From assembly GCF_000829415.1 (NCBI RefSeq), contig NZ_AP014637.1, positions 3,985,001 through 4,049,000 of the forward strand: DNA of 64,000 bases, read 5' to 3'. Numbering within the stretch: position 1 is the stretch's first letter; every line of letters begins with the position of its first letter. Under the pieces are notes generated by a model. It was not told where the DNA came from, did no database searches, and saw nothing but the letters and a program-made list of their open reading frames with translations. Shown here piece by piece: positions 9,430 through 29,780 of this stretch. This stretch comes from Pseudomonas sp. StFLB209 (GTDB lineage Bacteria; Pseudomonadota; Gammaproteobacteria; Pseudomonadales; Pseudomonadaceae). Both the position numbers and the translations under genes were made by a program.

Positions 9430-10221
9430 TCAGCGTCCTTTGAAAGTCGCAGTGCGTTTGTTGATGAATGCCGATACGCCTTCGCGGTAATCCTCGCTGC
9501 GTCCGGCCAGGCGTTGCAGGTCGCGCTCCAGTTCCAGTTGCGCATCAAGGCTGTTGTGCGCACTGGCGTTGAGCGCGCGTTTGATCAGGGCCAGGCCGTA
9601 GGTGGGCTGGGTCGCCAGATGCCGGGCCAGCTTGAGGGCTTCGTCGCGCAGATCGGCATCGTCGTGTACCTGATAAATCAGCCCCCATTGCTCGGCCTGC
9701 TCGGCGCTCAGTTTGTTGCCAAGCAGGGCCAGTGCCTTGGCCCTTGCCATGCCCACCAGGCGCGGCAGGTGCCAGGTGCCACCGGAGTCGGGCACCAGGC
9801 CGATTTTGCAAAACGCCTGGATAAAGCTTGCCGAGCGGGCGGCCAGCACCAGGTCGCAAGCCAGCGGGATATTCGCCCCGGCACCGGCGGCCACGCCGTT
9901 GACCGCGCAGATCACCGGTAATGGCAGGTCGCGCAGACTGCGGATCAGCGGGTTATAGAATGTGTCGATGGACTCGCCCAGATCCGGCATCGCGCTGCCC
10001 GGTGCGACATTGCGGTCAGACAGGTCCTGGCCGGCACAAAAGCCCCGGCCTTCACCGGTGAGCAGCAGCACCCGTGCTGTGCTGCTTTGGCGAACCTGTT
10101 TGAGTGCTTCGCGCACTTGCAGATGCATGGCGGCATTGAAGCTATTGAGTTGCTCGGGGCGGTTGAGACTAAGGAAGGCAACGCCGTCCTCGATGGAAAA
10201 CAGGATGTGCTCAAAGTCCAT
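9430..10221 (-). CDS. paaG: Ring-1,2-epoxyphenylacetyl-CoA isomerase PaaG
   Basis: PaaG converts the epoxide made by PaaABCE into the seven-membered oxepin-CoA and also shifts a double bond later in the pathway. The 263-residue crotonase-fold protein shows LNRPEQLNSFNAAM near the start, the oxyanion-hole stretch GRGFCAGQDLSDRN (about 57-70) and the acidic motif KIGLVPDSGGTWHLPRLVG (about 140-158). In that motif an Asp replaces the Glu of ordinary hydratases, as expected for this isomerase. It lies 29 bases after paaF. Confidence 0.94.
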   Translation of the reverse strand: MDFEHILFSIEDGVAFLSLNRPEQLNSFNAAMHLQVREALKQVRQSSTARVLLLTGEGRGFCAGQDLSDRNVAPGSAMPDLGESIDTFYNPLIRSLRDLPLPVICAVNGVAAGAGANIPLACDLVLAARSASFIQAFCKIGLVPDSGGTWHLPRLVGMARAKALALLGNKLSAEQAEQWGLIYQVHDDADLRDEALKLARHLATQPTYGLALIKRALNASAHNSLDAQLELERDLQRLAGRSEDYREGVSAFINKRTATFKGR

Positions 10222-10250
10222 GGCTGGAGCTCTCTGTGCAGGACGAAGGA

Positions 10251-11024
10251 TTACCGGCCGGTGAACGCCGGAGCGCGTTTTGCCTGAAAAGCCTGAATGC
10301 CTTCGTTGCGGTCGGCGGTGCCGGCCAGCAAGGTGAAGGCATGGCGTTCGAAGCGCAGGCCGCTGGCCAGGTCAAGGTCCTGGGCCTTGAGCACGGCCTC
10401 CCTGGCCAGGCGGACCGCCAGCGGCGCTTTGCTGGCGATGACGCGGGCGATCTCCAGGGCCCGGTCAACGGTGAACTCCGGCTGGGTGAGCTCGCTGACC
10501 AGCCCGGCGCGCCGGGCGTGACGGGCATCGATCGGCAGGCCGGTAAGCACCATCTGCATCGCCAGTGACTTGCCCACCGCGTGCAGCAGGCGTTGGGTGC
10601 CGCCGGCGCCGGGCATGATGCCAAGGTTGATTTCCGGTTGCCCGAAACGGGCATCTTCACCGGCGATGATCACGTCGGCATGCATCGCCAGTTCACAGCC
10701 AGCGCCGAGGCAGAAGCCGTTGACGGCGGCGATCAGCGGTTTGCTAAAGGCGCCGATGCGTTGCCAGTGTGCCTGGCGTGGGTCGTCAAGGATGCCGACC
10801 ATGTCGCGCTCTGCCATTTCGTGGATATCGGCGCCAGCGGCAAACGCTTTGCGGCTGCCGGTGATGACCACCGCCCGGATGTCAGGGTCTGCCGCTGCCA
10901 CCTCAAGCGCCTCGGCCAGGTCACCCAGCAGCGCGGTGTTCAGGGCGTTCAGCGCCTCGGGCCGGTGCAGGGTCAGCAGCCGCACACCGGTCATCGGCGT
11001 GGTCATGACAAGGGTCTGAGGCAT
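10251..11024 (-). CDS. paaF: 2,3-dehydroadipyl-CoA hydratase PaaF
   Basis: PaaF adds water to 2,3-dehydroadipyl-CoA. The 257-residue product is a crotonase with LHRPEALNALNTALL, the oxyanion-hole motif AFAAGADIHEMAE (about 61-73), NGFCLGAGCELAMHADVI and the catalytic-Glu motif PEINLGIMPGAGGTQRL (about 130-146), as in true enoyl-CoA hydratases. The ATG at 11024 follows GGAGGACTGCCCC; a start 12 codons earlier lacks such a site. It is the first gene of the paaFGHIJK unit and is divergent from paaY. Confidence 0.95.
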   Translation of the reverse strand: MPQTLVMTTPMTGVRLLTLHRPEALNALNTALLGDLAEALEVAAADPDIRAVVITGSRKAFAAGADIHEMAERDMVGILDDPRQAHWQRIGAFSKPLIAAVNGFCLGAGCELAMHADVIIAGEDARFGQPEINLGIMPGAGGTQRLLHAVGKSLAMQMVLTGLPIDARHARRAGLVSELTQPEFTVDRALEIARVIASKAPLAVRLAREAVLKAQDLDLASGLRFERHAFTLLAGTADRNEGIQAFQAKRAPAFTGR

Positions 11025-11354
11025 GGGGCAGTCCTCCGGCAGCAAGGGCGGTGTGAGCACCGCTGATTATTGGAAAGGCGCGCTCTGTGAGGCGGGCTGA
11101 AATGAGTATAGGCATAACGCGATACGGAAAAACAGATTTGTGTATTTGTTTTTGTGTCTAGTGTGTTTGTTTTTATCCGGTTTTTTTTAGTAAAAGCATT
11201 ATTTATCAGGCGTTTGTATTAGTTTTTTCCTGTATTTTTCAGATCTTTATACGATACGTTTATCAATAATTTTCATTGATTTAAGGGTTGTTTTTATAGG
11301 AAGGTGGTGTGTCTGCAGCCCACCTGCCGGGCGTTCCCGGCCAGAGGATTACCC
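11025..11354. promoter_or_regulatory. Divergent paaF / paaY promoter region with GATAC operator motifs
   Basis: This 330-base spacer separates two divergently transcribed units and is strikingly AT-rich from 11100 to 11295. It contains GCGATACGGAAA at 11119-11130, matching the minus-strand GCGATACGAAA at 4383-4393 in the paaA spacer. A second ACGATACGTT lies at 11251-11260. Shared words in front of two co-regulated units make them candidate PaaX operators for paaF and paaY. Core promoter boxes are not clear enough to mark. Confidence 0.55.
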
Positions 11355-11948
11355 ATGACCTGCTACAGCCTTGATGGCCTGACTCCGGTGGTTCATCCCA
11401 CCGCTTATGTGCATCCTTCTGCGGTATTGATTGGTGATGTGATCATTGGCCCTGGCTGCTATGTCGGGCCGCTGGCCAGCCTGCGCGGCGATTTCGGGCG
11501 CATCGTGCTGGAGGAGGGCGCCAACCTGCAGGACACCTGCGTCATGCATGGTTTCCCTGACAGCGACACGGTGGTGGGGCGCAACGGCCATATCGGCCAC
11601 GGCGCCGTGCTGCACGGTTGCCGTATCGGCGCGGATGTTCTGGTGGGTATCAATGCCGTGGTAATGGATGCAGCCCAAATCGGTGCGCGGTCGTTTGTCG
11701 CCGCCGCCAGCCTGGTCAAGGCGAATTTCAGTTGCGCCGAGCAATCGCTGGTGATGGGCTCTCCGGCCAGCGTCAAACGCCTGCTCAGTGATGACGAGGT
11801 TGCCTGGAAACAGGCCGGTACCCGTGAGTATCAGGCGCTTGCCCGGCGCTGCCAGCACAGTCTGGTGGCGTGTGAACCGTTGCTGGAGGCCGAGCCAGAC
11901 CGGCCCCGTATCAGTGCCAGTGCCCATCGGCCCAAGGCTGCCGGTTGA
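11355..11948 (+). CDS. paaY: PaaY thioesterase / gamma-carbonic-anhydrase-fold protein
   Basis: PaaY is a hexapeptide-repeat protein of the gamma-carbonic-anhydrase fold that acts as a thioesterase on pathway by-products such as 2-hydroxycyclohepta-1,4,6-triene-formyl-CoA. The 197-residue product has repeated hexapeptides ([42 protein letters not shown]) and the metal-site histidines seen in VMHGF and [12 protein letters not shown]. The ATG at 11355 follows AGAGGATTACCC and gives the family length; the ORF could extend 17 codons upstream without such a site. paaX follows 67 bases later. Confidence 0.93.
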
Positions 11949-25256: not shown

Positions 25257-26276
25257 ATGGCACGTATTGGTTCCCGCTCCACCGGCCGGCCGACGCTCAA
25301 TGAAGTAGCGAAACTGGCTGGCGTCTCTCCCATTACCGCATCCAGGGCCTTGCGTGGCGTGGCGACGGTGGCTCCCGAGCTGGTCGAGAAGGTCCGCGCC
25401 GCTGCCCAGCGCCTGGGTTATGTGGCCAACCCGGCAGCTCGTGCCCTGGCGTCATCCAGCAGCCCGACGGTGGTGGTGCTGGTGCCGTCGCTGTCCAACC
25501 AGTTGTTCATCGAACCTCTGGAGGCGATTCAGAATGTGCTGCGCCCGCGTGGTCTGGAAGTGGTGATCGGCAACTACCATTACGACCCCAAAGAAGAAGA
25601 GACATTGCTGCGTAACCACCTGATCAACCGGCCGCGTGGTTTGCTGTTGACCGGGCTGGATCACACCCCGTCGGTCCGTCAGTTACTGGCCGACAGCGAG
25701 ATCCCGTGCGTGCACATGATGGAGCTGGATATCACCGAGCAGACCCATTGCGTCGGCTTTTCCCAACATCAGGCCGGGGCCGGTGCGGCCAAACACTTGC
25801 TTGGTCGCGGCCGCAAACGGCTGGCCTACATTGCCGCGCAGCTTGACCCTCGTGTATTGCAGCGCGGCGCCGGGTTTCGTCAGGTGCTGGTCGAGGCGGG
25901 CATGGACGACCCGCAACTGCATGTAATGTCGCCGTTACCTTCATCCATCGGCCTGGGCTGCGAGCTGTTCGCCAGGCTGCTGGTAGAGCACCCGGATGTC
26001 GATGGGGTGTTCTTCTGCAATGACGACCTGGCCCAGGGCGCGGCGCTGGAGGCCCTGCGCCTGGGTATCAAGATTCCCGAGCAGGTGGCGCTGGTAGGTT
26101 TCAACGACCTGCCAGGCTCTGCCCACATGGTTCCGCGTCTGACCTCGATCCGCACGCCGCGCGCCGCAGTAGGCCAGCATGCGGCGCAGATGCTGCTGGC
26201 GTTGCTCGACGATCAGTTGCCTGAGTCGCAACAGCTGGATCTGGGCTTCGAGCTGGTGGTGCGCGAGAGTTCCTGA
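25257..26276 (+). CDS. gntR: LacI-family gluconate repressor GntR
   Basis: Represses gluconate genes until gluconate or 6-phosphogluconate binds. The 339-residue product opens with a LacI helix-turn-helix (RPTLNEVAKLAGVSPITASRALRG) and hinge (RLGYVANPAARALASS), followed by a periplasmic-binding-like sensor domain (VVVLVPSLSNQLFIEPLEAI, FFCNDDLAQGAALEALRLG, VGFNDLPGSA). The ATG at 25257 gives the family length; its ribosome site is weak. Divergent from gntK and convergent with the malate-synthase-like gene. Confidence 0.93.
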   Translation: MARIGSRSTGRPTLNEVAKLAGVSPITASRALRGVATVAPELVEKVRAAAQRLGYVANPAARALASSSSPTVVVLVPSLSNQLFIEPLEAIQNVLRPRGLEVVIGNYHYDPKEEETLLRNHLINRPRGLLLTGLDHTPSVRQLLADSEIPCVHMMELDITEQTHCVGFSQHQAGAGAAKHLLGRGRKRLAYIAAQLDPRVLQRGAGFRQVLVEAGMDDPQLHVMSPLPSSIGLGCELFARLLVEHPDVDGVFFCNDDLAQGAALEALRLGIKIPEQVALVGFNDLPGSAHMVPRLTSIRTPRAAVGQHAAQMLLALLDDQLPESQQLDLGFELVVRESS

Positions 26277-26299
26277 GCGCCCCTGGCTGACGCCATCAG

Positions 26300-27946
26300 T
26301 CACGCTATCGGCTGACTGCAGCACTCATCCAGCAGGCTCGCACAGTGCTGCTGCAGGTTGTCCTGCTCAATAGCCCGCTGCACCTCAGCCACGTCGACCT
26401 GATGATGGTGCAGGGCATGCAGCGTGGCAGCGATGGGCGTGCACACCAGCATGCCGCTGGCGCCCTGCTGCAGCGGCTCAATACCTGCTTCGAGCAGCGC
26501 CGCCATGTGTTCTGGCTGGCTCCATAGCCCTTTGCTGATCTGTGCCCGGCCACGCAGGCCGCAGGCCAGGGCTACCGGCACGGTGCGTCGCTCGGCCAGG
26601 CGCTGCCAGGGTGTGGTCGCGAGGGCGTTTCGCCAATCAACCGCGCCGCTGTGCAGCAGGGCAGTGCGGGCCGCAGCGGCATGGATACAGGCTTCCAGAT
26701 TGAGGCTGGTGCGCCAGTGTTCGTCGGTCAGGCCCAGCTTGAGCGTTTGCGCTGCCAGCCCGAGCAGGGTTTCGATCCGCCCGAACAGCAGGTCGACGAA
26801 TGCCACTTCCTGCACGCCCTCAAGGCCGGGCACGCTGAGATAGATGCTGCCGCTGCGCGAGTTGCCACGCCGCTGCAGGTCATGCAGGGCAATCAGGCTA
26901 CCCAGTACCGCGTCGAGAATCAGCTGTGCAACTGGCTGGCCGTGGGCATCGAGCAGTGCCGGGTTGTGTCTGGCCAGGCCGTTGATATGCAACAGCGACA
27001 AGGCGCGGCCGGGCAGTTTCAATTCACCGCCAGCCGCGCCTTGCCAGGTCTGGTCTGGCTGCAGCGCCTGGCCTTTCATCAGGCTCAGCCAGTTTGCGTA
27101 GCCGTCCAGCTCGCGGGTGCGCAGCGGTGTGCTGATGTCGATCCAGGCGGTCAGTGCTGCTTCAAGCAGCACGTCGCTGATCCCGGCCACATCACAGCCA
27201 CCGGCGCGGCTTTGCGGATCGATACGGACATCTACATGCAGCCGGTGATGGCCGAACAGCAAGGCATTGGGTTGCAACGCCTGGCCTTGATGGCCGAGAA
27301 ACTGCTCCGGGCGTTGCAGGCCGGTTTCCTCGCCATTGGCCAGGGTGACGCTCAACTGACCATGACGCACCCGATAGTGCCGGGCATTGACGTGGCTGCC
27401 ACTGCTCAGGGGAATGACCTGATCAAACCACTCGCGCACTTGCACCACCACTTTGGCGCCGCGTTGCGGATTGTACTGAGCGTCGAGTTCATAACCTTGC
27501 TGCTGGGCAACCGCATCGCTGTAATACAGTGCGTCGTATAGCGAACCCCACCGGGCACTGGCCGCATTCACGACCGCTTGCGCATCGTGACCGGCGGCCA
27601 GCAACTGAGGACCGGACTGATCGCTGATTTCCATGTCGACACTGGCGGTACTGATCCGCACCGGTTGGGAGCAGGCTTGCGGGTAGCCCAGTTGCTCCAG
27701 AAAACTGCGCCAGGCGCCCGGCTCAGGGGGGCAATGGGCCTTGTGCCATTCGCTGAGCGCCAGTTGCACGCGCTCGCGCTCGGCCAGCAGGTCGCGGTGC
27801 AGCGGGGCCAGGTCCTGGAGCAGGTCGTCCAGGCCTTCCCAGAACGTCTCGCGGTCGATCAGTGTGCCGGGCAGCACCTGTTGTTCGATGAACTGGTGCA
27901 GCGCGGCGGTGACTCTCAGACGATTACAGCGAAGGTAGTCCGTCAT
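26300..27946 (-). CDS. Truncated, degenerate malate synthase G-like protein
   Basis: A 548-residue protein clearly related to malate synthase G (usual length about 725): ARWGSLYDALY, GSHVNARHYRV, NWLSLMKG, RSGSIYLSVPG, EVAFVDLLFGR, ACGLRGRAQISKGLW and PIAATLHALHHHQVDV follow the GlcB order. It departs where the enzyme acts: the MDCEDS motif is IDISTP, the arginine in LFVRNVGHLM is replaced (LLHINGLAR), and the C-terminal domain with the catalytic Asp is absent. Metal-ligand positions in QEVAF and TDEHWRT appear kept. The frame is intact. It follows a GlcG-like gene by 77 bases with ribosome site AAGGAACC. Probably not a normal malate synthase; role unknown. Confidence 0.8.
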   Translation of the reverse strand: MTDYLRCNRLRVTAALHQFIEQQVLPGTLIDRETFWEGLDDLLQDLAPLHRDLLAERERVQLALSEWHKAHCPPEPGAWRSFLEQLGYPQACSQPVRISTASVDMEISDQSGPQLLAAGHDAQAVVNAASARWGSLYDALYYSDAVAQQQGYELDAQYNPQRGAKVVVQVREWFDQVIPLSSGSHVNARHYRVRHGQLSVTLANGEETGLQRPEQFLGHQGQALQPNALLFGHHRLHVDVRIDPQSRAGGCDVAGISDVLLEAALTAWIDISTPLRTRELDGYANWLSLMKGQALQPDQTWQGAAGGELKLPGRALSLLHINGLARHNPALLDAHGQPVAQLILDAVLGSLIALHDLQRRGNSRSGSIYLSVPGLEGVQEVAFVDLLFGRIETLLGLAAQTLKLGLTDEHWRTSLNLEACIHAAAARTALLHSGAVDWRNALATTPWQRLAERRTVPVALACGLRGRAQISKGLWSQPEHMAALLEAGIEPLQQGASGMLVCTPIAATLHALHHHQVDVAEVQRAIEQDNLQQHCASLLDECCSQPIA

Positions 27947-28023
27947 GGCGGTTCCTTGAGATTGTCAGTGAACTGCAATCCTGAAGGCGGTTCCGCCACG
28001 GCCCGGCTGCGGTGCGCTTCAGG

Positions 28024-28431
28024 TCAATCGGCGTTGAGGGCGGCAATCCCGGCTTTGGCGATTTGCGCATCCTGATCGGAACGAACCCCGGAGACGCCGA
28101 CAGCGCCGATCACCTGGCCATCGACGATGACAGGTACGCCGCCTTCCAGGGAGGTCAGCAGTGGCGCGCTGAGAAACGCCGTACGGCCACCGTTGACCAC
28201 CTCTTCATAGCTTTTGGATTCGCGCCGGCCCAGCGCCGAGGTGCGGGCTTTCTCGGTGCTGATGTAGCTGCTGCTCGGGCTGGCATTGTCCAGGCGCTCG
28301 AAGGCCAGCAGGTGGCCGCCGTCATCGACAATGGCAATCGACACGGCCCATTCGTTGTGCAGGGCTTCCTGACGGGCGGCGGCGAGAATCTGGCTGACTT
28401 CAGCCTGGGTCAGAACGGCTTTTATTTTCAT
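28024..28431 (-). CDS. GlcG/HbpS-family heme-binding-like protein
   Basis: A 135-residue protein of the GlcG/HbpS (DUF336) fold: ILAAARQEALHNEWAVSIAIVDDGGHLLAFERLDNA, then EVVNGGRTAFLSAPLLTSLEGGVPVIVDGQVIGAVGVSG, closely following the family pattern. GlcG genes usually sit in glycolate-oxidase operons next to malate synthase glcB. Here it precedes a malate-synthase-like gene but no glcDEF is present. The ATG at 28431 (AAGGACC upstream) gives the family length; the 33 extra upstream codons are rejected. Molecular function is unproven. Confidence 0.85.
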   Translation of the reverse strand: MKIKAVLTQAEVSQILAAARQEALHNEWAVSIAIVDDGGHLLAFERLDNASPSSSYISTEKARTSALGRRESKSYEEVVNGGRTAFLSAPLLTSLEGGVPVIVDGQVIGAVGVSGVRSDQDAQIAKAGIAALNAD

Positions 28432-28559
28432 GCGAGGTCCTTGGCGGATGGGGGGAGGCGTCCCGGCAACGCTCAGCAAGCGCCCCTCGGGTCTGGCAGG
28501 ATAGCGGCTGACGACAGATTTTTCATGCATGGGCTGACAAGCCGGGCTAGGCTCAATGC

Positions 28560-28643
28560 ATGAACACCTCAGCCTTGCAGTTACTCATCGGGGATTTTCT
28601 TGCGCGCAGTGTGCGTGGCATTCCCTGCGCGCCGCCTGCGTGA
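28560..28643 (+). other. Short open frame upstream of hpd, possible leader peptide
   Basis: An ATG at 28560 opens a 27-codon frame ending TGA (MNTSALQLLIGDFLARSVRG...). It ends 48 bases before hpd. There is no good ribosome site and no recognised family; it could be a leader peptide, a gene remnant or chance. Confidence 0.2.
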
Positions 28644-28691
28644 ACTGATCGCGATTGCCGCCATTTTCAGTTTCCTGCAAGGAGCCATACC

Positions 28692-29780
28692 ATGGCTGAT
28701 CTATACGACAACCCGATGGGGTTGATGGGGTTTGAGTTCATCGAGCTGGCCGCGCCGGTGGCGGGTGTGCTTGAGCCGGTGCTGCAGATGCTCGGCTTTA
28801 CCAGGGTGGCCGTGCACCGCTCCAAGGCGGTGGCCCTGTATCGTCAGGGTGATATCAACCTGATCCTCAATAACGAGCCGCACAGCCTGGCGTCTTATTT
28901 TGCGGCCGAGCATGGCCCCTCGGTCTGCGGCATGGCCTTTCGGGTCAAGGACTCGCATCTGGCCTACCAGCGTGCACTGGAACTCGGTGCGCAGCCGCTG
29001 GAGATTCCGGTCGGGCCGATGGAGCTGCGGCTACCGGCGATCAAGGGCATCGGTGGTGCGCCGTTGTACCTGATCGACCGTTTCGGCGAAGGTACGTCCA
29101 TCTACGATATCGATTTCAATTTCATCGAGGGCGTCGATCGTCACCCGCCGGGCGCTGGCCTGAAATTCATCGATCACCTGACTCACAACGTTTATCGCGG
29201 ACGTATGGCCTACTGGGCCGGGTTCTACGAGAAACTGTTCAACTTTCGTGAGATTCGTTACTTCGACATCAAGGGTGAATACACCGGCCTGACCTCCCGT
29301 GCGATGACCGCGCCGGACGGGCTGATCCGTATTCCGCTCAACGAGGAGTCGTCCAGAGGCGCAGGGCAGATCGAAGAGTTCCTCATGCAGTTCAACGGCG
29401 AGGGTATCCAGCACGTGGCGTTCTGCACGGACGACCTGATTGCCACCTGCGATGCTCTCAAGGCGCTGGGGCTGCCATTCATGACCGCGCCCCCCGAGAC
29501 CTATTACGAGATGCTCCCGGAGCGCTTGCCGGACCATGGTGAGCCTGTCGCCGAGCTCAAGGCACGGGGCATTTTGCTCGACGGCAGCAATGAGGGCGGC
29601 CAGCGGCGCCTGCTGCTGCAGATATTTTCCGGGACGCTGTTAGGGCCGGTGTTTTTCGAGTTTATCCAGCGCAAGGGGGATGAGGGCTTCGGTGAGGGCA
29701 ATTTCAAGGCGCTGTTCGAGTCCATCGAACGTGATCAGATCCGCCGTGGCGTGCTGACCCAGGCACCGGCTGATGGCTGA
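28692..29780 (+). CDS. hpd: 4-hydroxyphenylpyruvate dioxygenase
   Basis: Converts 4-hydroxyphenylpyruvate to homogentisate, an Fe(II) dioxygenase step of tyrosine degradation. The 362-residue product has the two VOC domains of bacterial HPPD. Iron ligands fit His in [11 protein letters not shown] (about residue 161), His in [11 protein letters not shown] (about 240) and Glu in [12 protein letters not shown] (about 322). The C-terminal [25 protein letters not shown] is characteristic. Ribosome site AAGGAGCC precedes the ATG. hmgA follows 53 bases later. Confidence 0.97.

Follow-up and report, generated by a model that had tools for sequence, protein, structure and literature searches.

A shortened malate synthase G homolog beside glcG in Pseudomonas sp. 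StFLB209: a candidate pseudoenzyme in a remnant glc operon

Malate synthase G (MSG) carries a C-terminal domain spanning residues 585-722, and the accessible text of PMC3112382 names R338, E427, L454, D455, W534, V119, P538 and D631 as its sites; the same text records unmeasurable activity for D631N and a reduction to 6.6% for R338K. It also describes haloarchaeal malate synthase isoform H, whose C-terminal domain is reduced and which retains the Arg, the Mg ligands and the catalytic Asp. In Pseudomonas umsongensis GO16, glcC, D, E, F, G and B stand under consecutive locus numbers, with GlcG described as uncharacterised (PMC8601165, portion available). GlcG has been named as a relative of EfgA, the DUF336 formaldehyde sensor of Methylorubrum, for which direct formaldehyde binding is reported and K57, S114 and D121 are proposed as ligand residues (PMC8153426, portion available). 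That portion gives EfgA no malate synthase partner, which sets it apart from the locus considered here. In the open-licence literature, no paper on a malate synthase as a pseudoenzyme was found, and among the malate synthase G papers listed no title addresses the subject.

A short MSG gene next to glcG

The window, the whole stretch of DNA that was analysed, comprises 64,000 nucleotides of the Pseudomonas sp. StFLB209 genome. Between gntR and hpd it holds a two-gene pair on the reverse strand:

25257..26276, plus strand: gntR (gluconate regulator), one flank of the slot; NCBIfam NF052440, 518 bits, cut-off 400
26300..27946, minus strand: short MSG homolog of 548 aa, made up of N-terminal, insertion and TIM-barrel domains; C-terminal domain absent
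27947..28023, minus strand: 77-bp spacer from glcG to the short gene; SD-like AAGGAA ahead of the short-gene ATG
28024..28431, minus strand: glcG (DUF336/HbpS-like), 135 aa, with the start placed at the ATG in agreement with other GlcG proteins
28432..28691, no strand: divergent glcG/hpd spacer; site of maiA, glcC, glcD, glcE and glcF in the related genome G018
28692..29780, plus strand: hpd (4-hydroxyphenylpyruvate dioxygenase), opposite flank; TIGR01263, 393.7 bits, cut-off 277

The start of gntR was placed at the ATG giving MARIGSRSTG, the NF052440 scan having begun at 25266, and the GlcG-like frame of the mechanical ORF list runs from 28024 to 28530 on the minus strand. A preliminary description of the DNA had seen an open frame with a good ribosome site, a product tracking MSG over most of its length, and loss of the C-terminal domain with the catalytic Asp, all of which hold. 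The 548-aa frame is open, with AAGGAA 5 nt ahead of its ATG. HMMER aligns the product to E. coli MSG (1d8c) over chain residues 5-582 of 723, and the catalytic base, D631, lies past the end of the alignment, gone together with its domain; an alignment end at ~582 against a domain that begins at 585 places the cut at the domain border. Pfam matches comprise MS_N, MSG_insertion and MS_TIM-barrel, the C-terminal MSG domain being absent from them, and the protein falls under the cut-offs of both MSG family models (NF002825, 497.9 bits against 565; TIGR01345, 476.3 bits against 989.15).

A search for a full-length glcB elsewhere, proposed in the same description, located a second MSG, 741 aa long and containing MDCEDS, RNVGHLM and MEDRAT, and a genome devoid of any full-length MSG was accordingly dismissed. 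Sequencing or assembly error, raised there as an alternative source of the short form, was likewise rejected: the genome is a single contig, and a second genome (G180) plus four further protein clusters carry the same form. A consensus scan of 26200-28760 returned no promoter-like site (expected 0.2) and one terminator-like site (expected 2.0).

Just upstream of hpd, at 28560-28643 on the plus strand, lies a 27-aa ORF, MNTSALQLLIGDFLARSVRGIPCAPPA. A 27-29-aa version occurs in 27 of 43 sequences (42 loci plus the window), the same 27 that have the hpd start in the stretch, and bases deviating from the majority number 44, 15 and 206 at codon positions 1, 2 and 3, as in translated sequence. In the window, a TANNNT motif about 6 nt before its ATG suggests that the ORF might be a leader peptide of hpd translated from a leaderless transcript.

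The hpd-gntR slot and the origin of the short form

In relatives the slot from hpd to gntR holds glcDEFG followed by an intact MSG gene (glcB2), mostly plus glcC; in G018 the order is maiA, glcC, glcD, glcE, glcF, glcG and a 725-aa glcB. This is the arrangement with glcDEF and intact glcB that had been put forward as normal for GlcG, and its presence in the relatives' slot explains the glcG-short gene pair as a remnant of the operon. The slot comparison covered 31 loci plus the window (11 taken from a set of 20 stretches because they lie in the slot, and 20 retrieved through similarity to gntR), while 11 loci with a glcG-MSG pair away from hpd and gnt genes fell outside it. Intact GlcB2 was present at 21 of the 31 loci, glcDEFG without intact glcB2 at four, gntR alone at five (one interrupted by a contig end) and a short form at one. 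glcG occurs in all 27 sequences that have any glc gene, the window included, and at 22 of 22 loci examined it immediately precedes the MSG gene.

The window and G180 both lack glcC and glcDEF in the slot, retain glcG and carry the MSG gene as a short form; of 398 genus genomes, G180 is also the one closest to the window by GntR (88%; runner-up 82%). Glycolate oxidase elsewhere in these genomes was considered and rejected in a genome-wide search restricted to GlcD: no GlcD exceeded the cut-off of 567.9 in the window genome (G000; best 351.8) or in G180 (best 297.8), and GlcD above the cut-off was found in G018, G312 and G191. The genomic context of the short form described here is that of these two genomes only. 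In G180, LysR-like and MFS-like ORFs, named from sequence, occupy about 9436-11837 of locus L046 between the short gene and gntR, where the window has a gap of 23 bp. Loss in the reverse direction was also observed, in L069 (G325), L074 (G211), L078 (G191) and L079 (G094), where glcDEFG stays and glcB2 is not found or, in L069, survives as a C-terminal piece only.

The short form is rare. Among the matches listed, 98 of the 398 genus genomes match the window protein at 436 bits or more, and two of these are short, G000 (554-aa frame) and G180 (567), the other 96 frames being at least 725; a copy in G076 went uncounted (425.5 bits, a 526-aa frame running to the contig end). No extra short form came from a family draw of 398 genomes or from another genus draw of 331 genomes, both of which overlap the first draw. 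Among 5.8 billion proteins, five short-form clusters were recovered: P0001 (98% identical to the window protein), P0002 (82%), P0003 (53%), and P0014 and P0049 (both 52%). Proteins of P0001, P0002, P0003 and P0014 are 533-559 aa long, and the G180 protein, nearly equal to P0049, groups with that cluster. A profile search with these clusters produced no new short form among the best 120 of 8000 scored candidates; their top rank and the gap of 941 to 697 bits arise partly by construction, the five clusters being rows of the profile. A scan of genome contigs gave two relatives at 47% identity.

In a tree of 35 proteins, the six short forms compose one clade (100/100) nested among slot GlcB2s, so that several independent origins are not needed. 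The stem of the clade measures 0.8 changes per site and the end branch of P0003 0.84; this long branch, together with the deviating letter make-up of five short forms, leaves the exact neighbour of the clade unsure. The short protein remains close to its GlcB2 relatives in slot, in adjoining glcG and in predicted fold over 1-581, with 51% identity to G018 GlcB2 in the aligned part. It differs from them in lacking the C-terminal domain, in altered V118, R125, Y126, C271-S274, R338 and W534, and in a genome without GlcD above the cut-off. Outside the clade, the 588-aa MSG P0051, from an ENA contig, also lacks the C-terminal domain, ends near the same border and has IGDEDP for IMDCEDS; it retains R338, E427, D455, W534, V118, R125 and Y126, with Pro at S274 and Gly at D270. 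P0051 might represent an earlier stage, or an independent instance, of a similar change.

Altered functional sites in a constrained frame

Sites were compared on the numbering of E. coli MSG. To those named in the literature we added V118, R125, Y126, S274, P536 and F453, which we take to be MSG sites from the UniProt entry (V118, R125, Y126 and S274 presumably forming the acetyl-CoA site), and C271-D273, motif sites adopted from the preliminary description. The losses claimed there of the MDCEDS motif and of the key Arg are confirmed: DCEDS at 270-274 reads D-I-S-T-P, and R338 is His (H320). In total, V118, V119, R125, Y126, C271-S274, R338, F453, L454, W534 and P536 are altered in the window, and D270, E427, D455 and P538 are unaltered. 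All six short forms are altered at V118, R125, Y126, S274, E272 and W534, the Trp of the glyoxylate pocket. V119 is retained in three of the six, and the pocket residues D270 and P538, the latter of the adenine pocket, in all six. Because V118, R125, Y126 and S274 are altered throughout the clade, another acyl-CoA reaction, one of the roles suggested earlier, is unlikely, even though P538 persists.

In the window, 13 of the 17 listed sites are altered, compared with 87 of 254 other columns (p 0.001), 9 of 13 when the motif taken from the earlier description is removed (p 0.018) and 4 of 7 for the seven paper-named sites alone (p 0.43); over all six short forms the corresponding values are 0.021, 0.14 and 0.26. 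Targeted loss at functional sites is thus plain residue by residue and modest in statistics. With D631 missing and His in place of R338, and given the effects of D631N and R338K, the window protein should not make malate. Isoform H shows that a reduced C-terminal domain can suffice for a malate synthase, and a residual activity of this other kind might be imagined for the short protein, yet isoform H still has its Arg, its Mg ligands and its catalytic Asp, whereas the short protein ends at ~582 with R338 and W534 altered, making such an activity very improbable.

The acidic metal-site positions were said to remain, and they do so in the window and its sub-branch: E427 and D455 persist as E409 and D437 in the window and are Glu and Glu in P0002 and P0003, and the window, P0001, P0002 and P0003 all have H320, E409 and Asp or Glu at 437. 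The claim fails for the sister sub-branch, P0014 and P0049, which has Arg (as at R338), Gln and a gap at these three places. A new metal-dependent enzyme, in which D270, E409 (E427) and D/E437 (D455) plus H320 could hold a metal for aldolase, lyase or hydratase chemistry independent of CoA, would draw on this pattern in its four members, on H410-W411 next to E409, invariant across the six short forms and replaced by E-R in the long ones (45 and 44 of 45), and on the placement of residues 301-430 among the best-conserved parts across short forms. The substitutions in P0014 and P0049 speak against it, as does the D455 loop region (431-503), one of the stretches that vary most between short forms and the one where pLDDT is lowest; we consider such an enzyme unlikely.

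The AlphaFold2 model, built on 53 sequences, has a mean pLDDT of 84.4 and a pTM of 0.87, with pLDDT below 50 at residues 471-498, the part missing in P0014 and P0049. All 50 listed structure matches from each aligner are MSG. The short protein is thus predicted to share the fold of MSG residues 1-581, a likeness that is expected from an alignment of MSG relatives and carries no independent weight.

Between the window and G180, the short gene has dN 0.354 and dS 0.986, for a dN/dS of about 0.36, approximate at dS near 1, and no stops. Its six compared neighbours, with dN/dS of 0.06-0.25, all lie lower: GlcG (dN 0.105, dS 0.766), HPPD (0.058, 0.91), GntR (0.078, 0.811), GntK (0.185, 0.744), GntP (0.039, 0.558) and HmgA (0.136, 1.126). 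The short gene is therefore constrained, yet less than its neighbours, and glcG is under ordinary constraint. The check for orthologs and dN/dS proposed with the earlier description accordingly gave orthologous short forms and, between the window and G180, a constraint that is relaxed relative to the six neighbours. A neutral simulation that began with the window gene and allowed no change but substitutions, with 500 runs at each level, gave mean stop counts of 3.5, 7.2, 11.1 and 14.2 at 0.1, 0.25, 0.5 and 1.0 substitutions per site; stop-free runs occurred at 0.1 (15 of 500) and at no higher level. Against a column reference of 45 long forms selected from listed hits, 271 columns are invariant, of which the window retains 171 and all six short forms 103. 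In 14 columns, H410-W411 among them, the six short forms agree on a residue unlike that of at least 90% of long forms; as the rows include close relatives, the six represent about three deep lineages.

These data bear on a slowly decaying remnant, in which the gene would have drifted after glcDEF loss with GlcG alone selected and the short gene there by chance. Rapid evolution on the stem and the P0003 end branch, a dN/dS above that of the neighbours and occurrence in 2 of 398 genus genomes would suit such drift. A frame free of stops in both genomes at dS about 1, where simulated drift gives 11-14 stops at 0.5-1.0, coding-like GC1/2/3, the clade-specific fixed residues and the similar lengths of four clusters all argue otherwise, and decay appears improbable, slightly more so than a new metal enzyme. 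The earlier suggestion that the pair has been kept for a different role is sustained by the single clade, the dN/dS, the stop-free frames and the fixed residues, which together suggest that an MSG-derived short gene was re-used for a new job.

A putative non-catalytic neighbour of GlcG

Window GlcG is the sole PF03928 match in its genome (124.3 bits, cut-off 25) and shares 87% identity with the GlcG encoded by the intact glc operon in G018. Its score of 193.3 bits against NCBIfam NF007275 (PRK09732, labelled hypothetical protein), which we take to be the GlcG model, is under the cut-off of 246. The protein aligns to EfgA (6bws) at E 1e-12, with Lys, Ser and Asp at the equivalents of K57, S114 and D121; native EfgA numbers were obtained as chain number minus 20, which fits G49, T60 and G65 in the available text of PMC8153426. 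GlcG thus resembles EfgA as a homolog and putative ligand binder with the three proposed ligand residues retained.

We favour, with a probability of about one half, a reading from sequence in which the pair would be what selection has preserved of a glc operon, with the short protein as a pseudoenzyme beside GlcG. Comparison of the loci supports a course in which the slot would have held glcDEFG-glcB2, mostly with glcC, as in relatives; the window/G180 branch would then have lost glcC and glcDEF from the slot, and glcB2 would have shed its C-terminal domain and most CoA- and glyoxylate-binding residues once, on the long stem. The frame of the barrel protein would afterwards have stayed open and constrained, beside a GlcG under ordinary constraint. 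From here the short protein, unable to make malate, might with roughly even odds act non-catalytically as a binding or scaffold protein. Retention of E427 and D/E455 in the window's sub-branch, not needed by a pure scaffold, counts against a pseudoenzyme, as do that of P538 and D270 throughout the clade and the relaxed constraint on the short gene.

GlcG would be the likeliest partner of the short protein, but such a partnership is less probable than not, inherited operon order being the sole link between them. Given the homology to EfgA and the three retained ligand residues, a possible role of the pair would be to detect or bind some small aldehyde or oxo-acid rather than to consume glyoxylate. 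The fullest version of this proposal, a malate synthase turned dedicated non-catalytic GlcG partner in a small aldehyde/oxo-acid sensing or buffering module, now read from the spacer shared with hpd, a gene of tyrosine catabolism, instead of a glc promoter, is a doubtful extension.

No role has been assigned to GlcG in glycolate operons, and its survival in two genomes without recognisable GlcD, under ordinary constraint and beside an apparently inactive enzyme, indicates that it is separable from glycolate oxidation. If the proposal is true, a GlcG-partner module would include a pseudoenzyme of the malate synthase family, and the locus offers a two-gene system for testing both what GlcG does and how a malate synthase could give rise to a pseudoenzyme.
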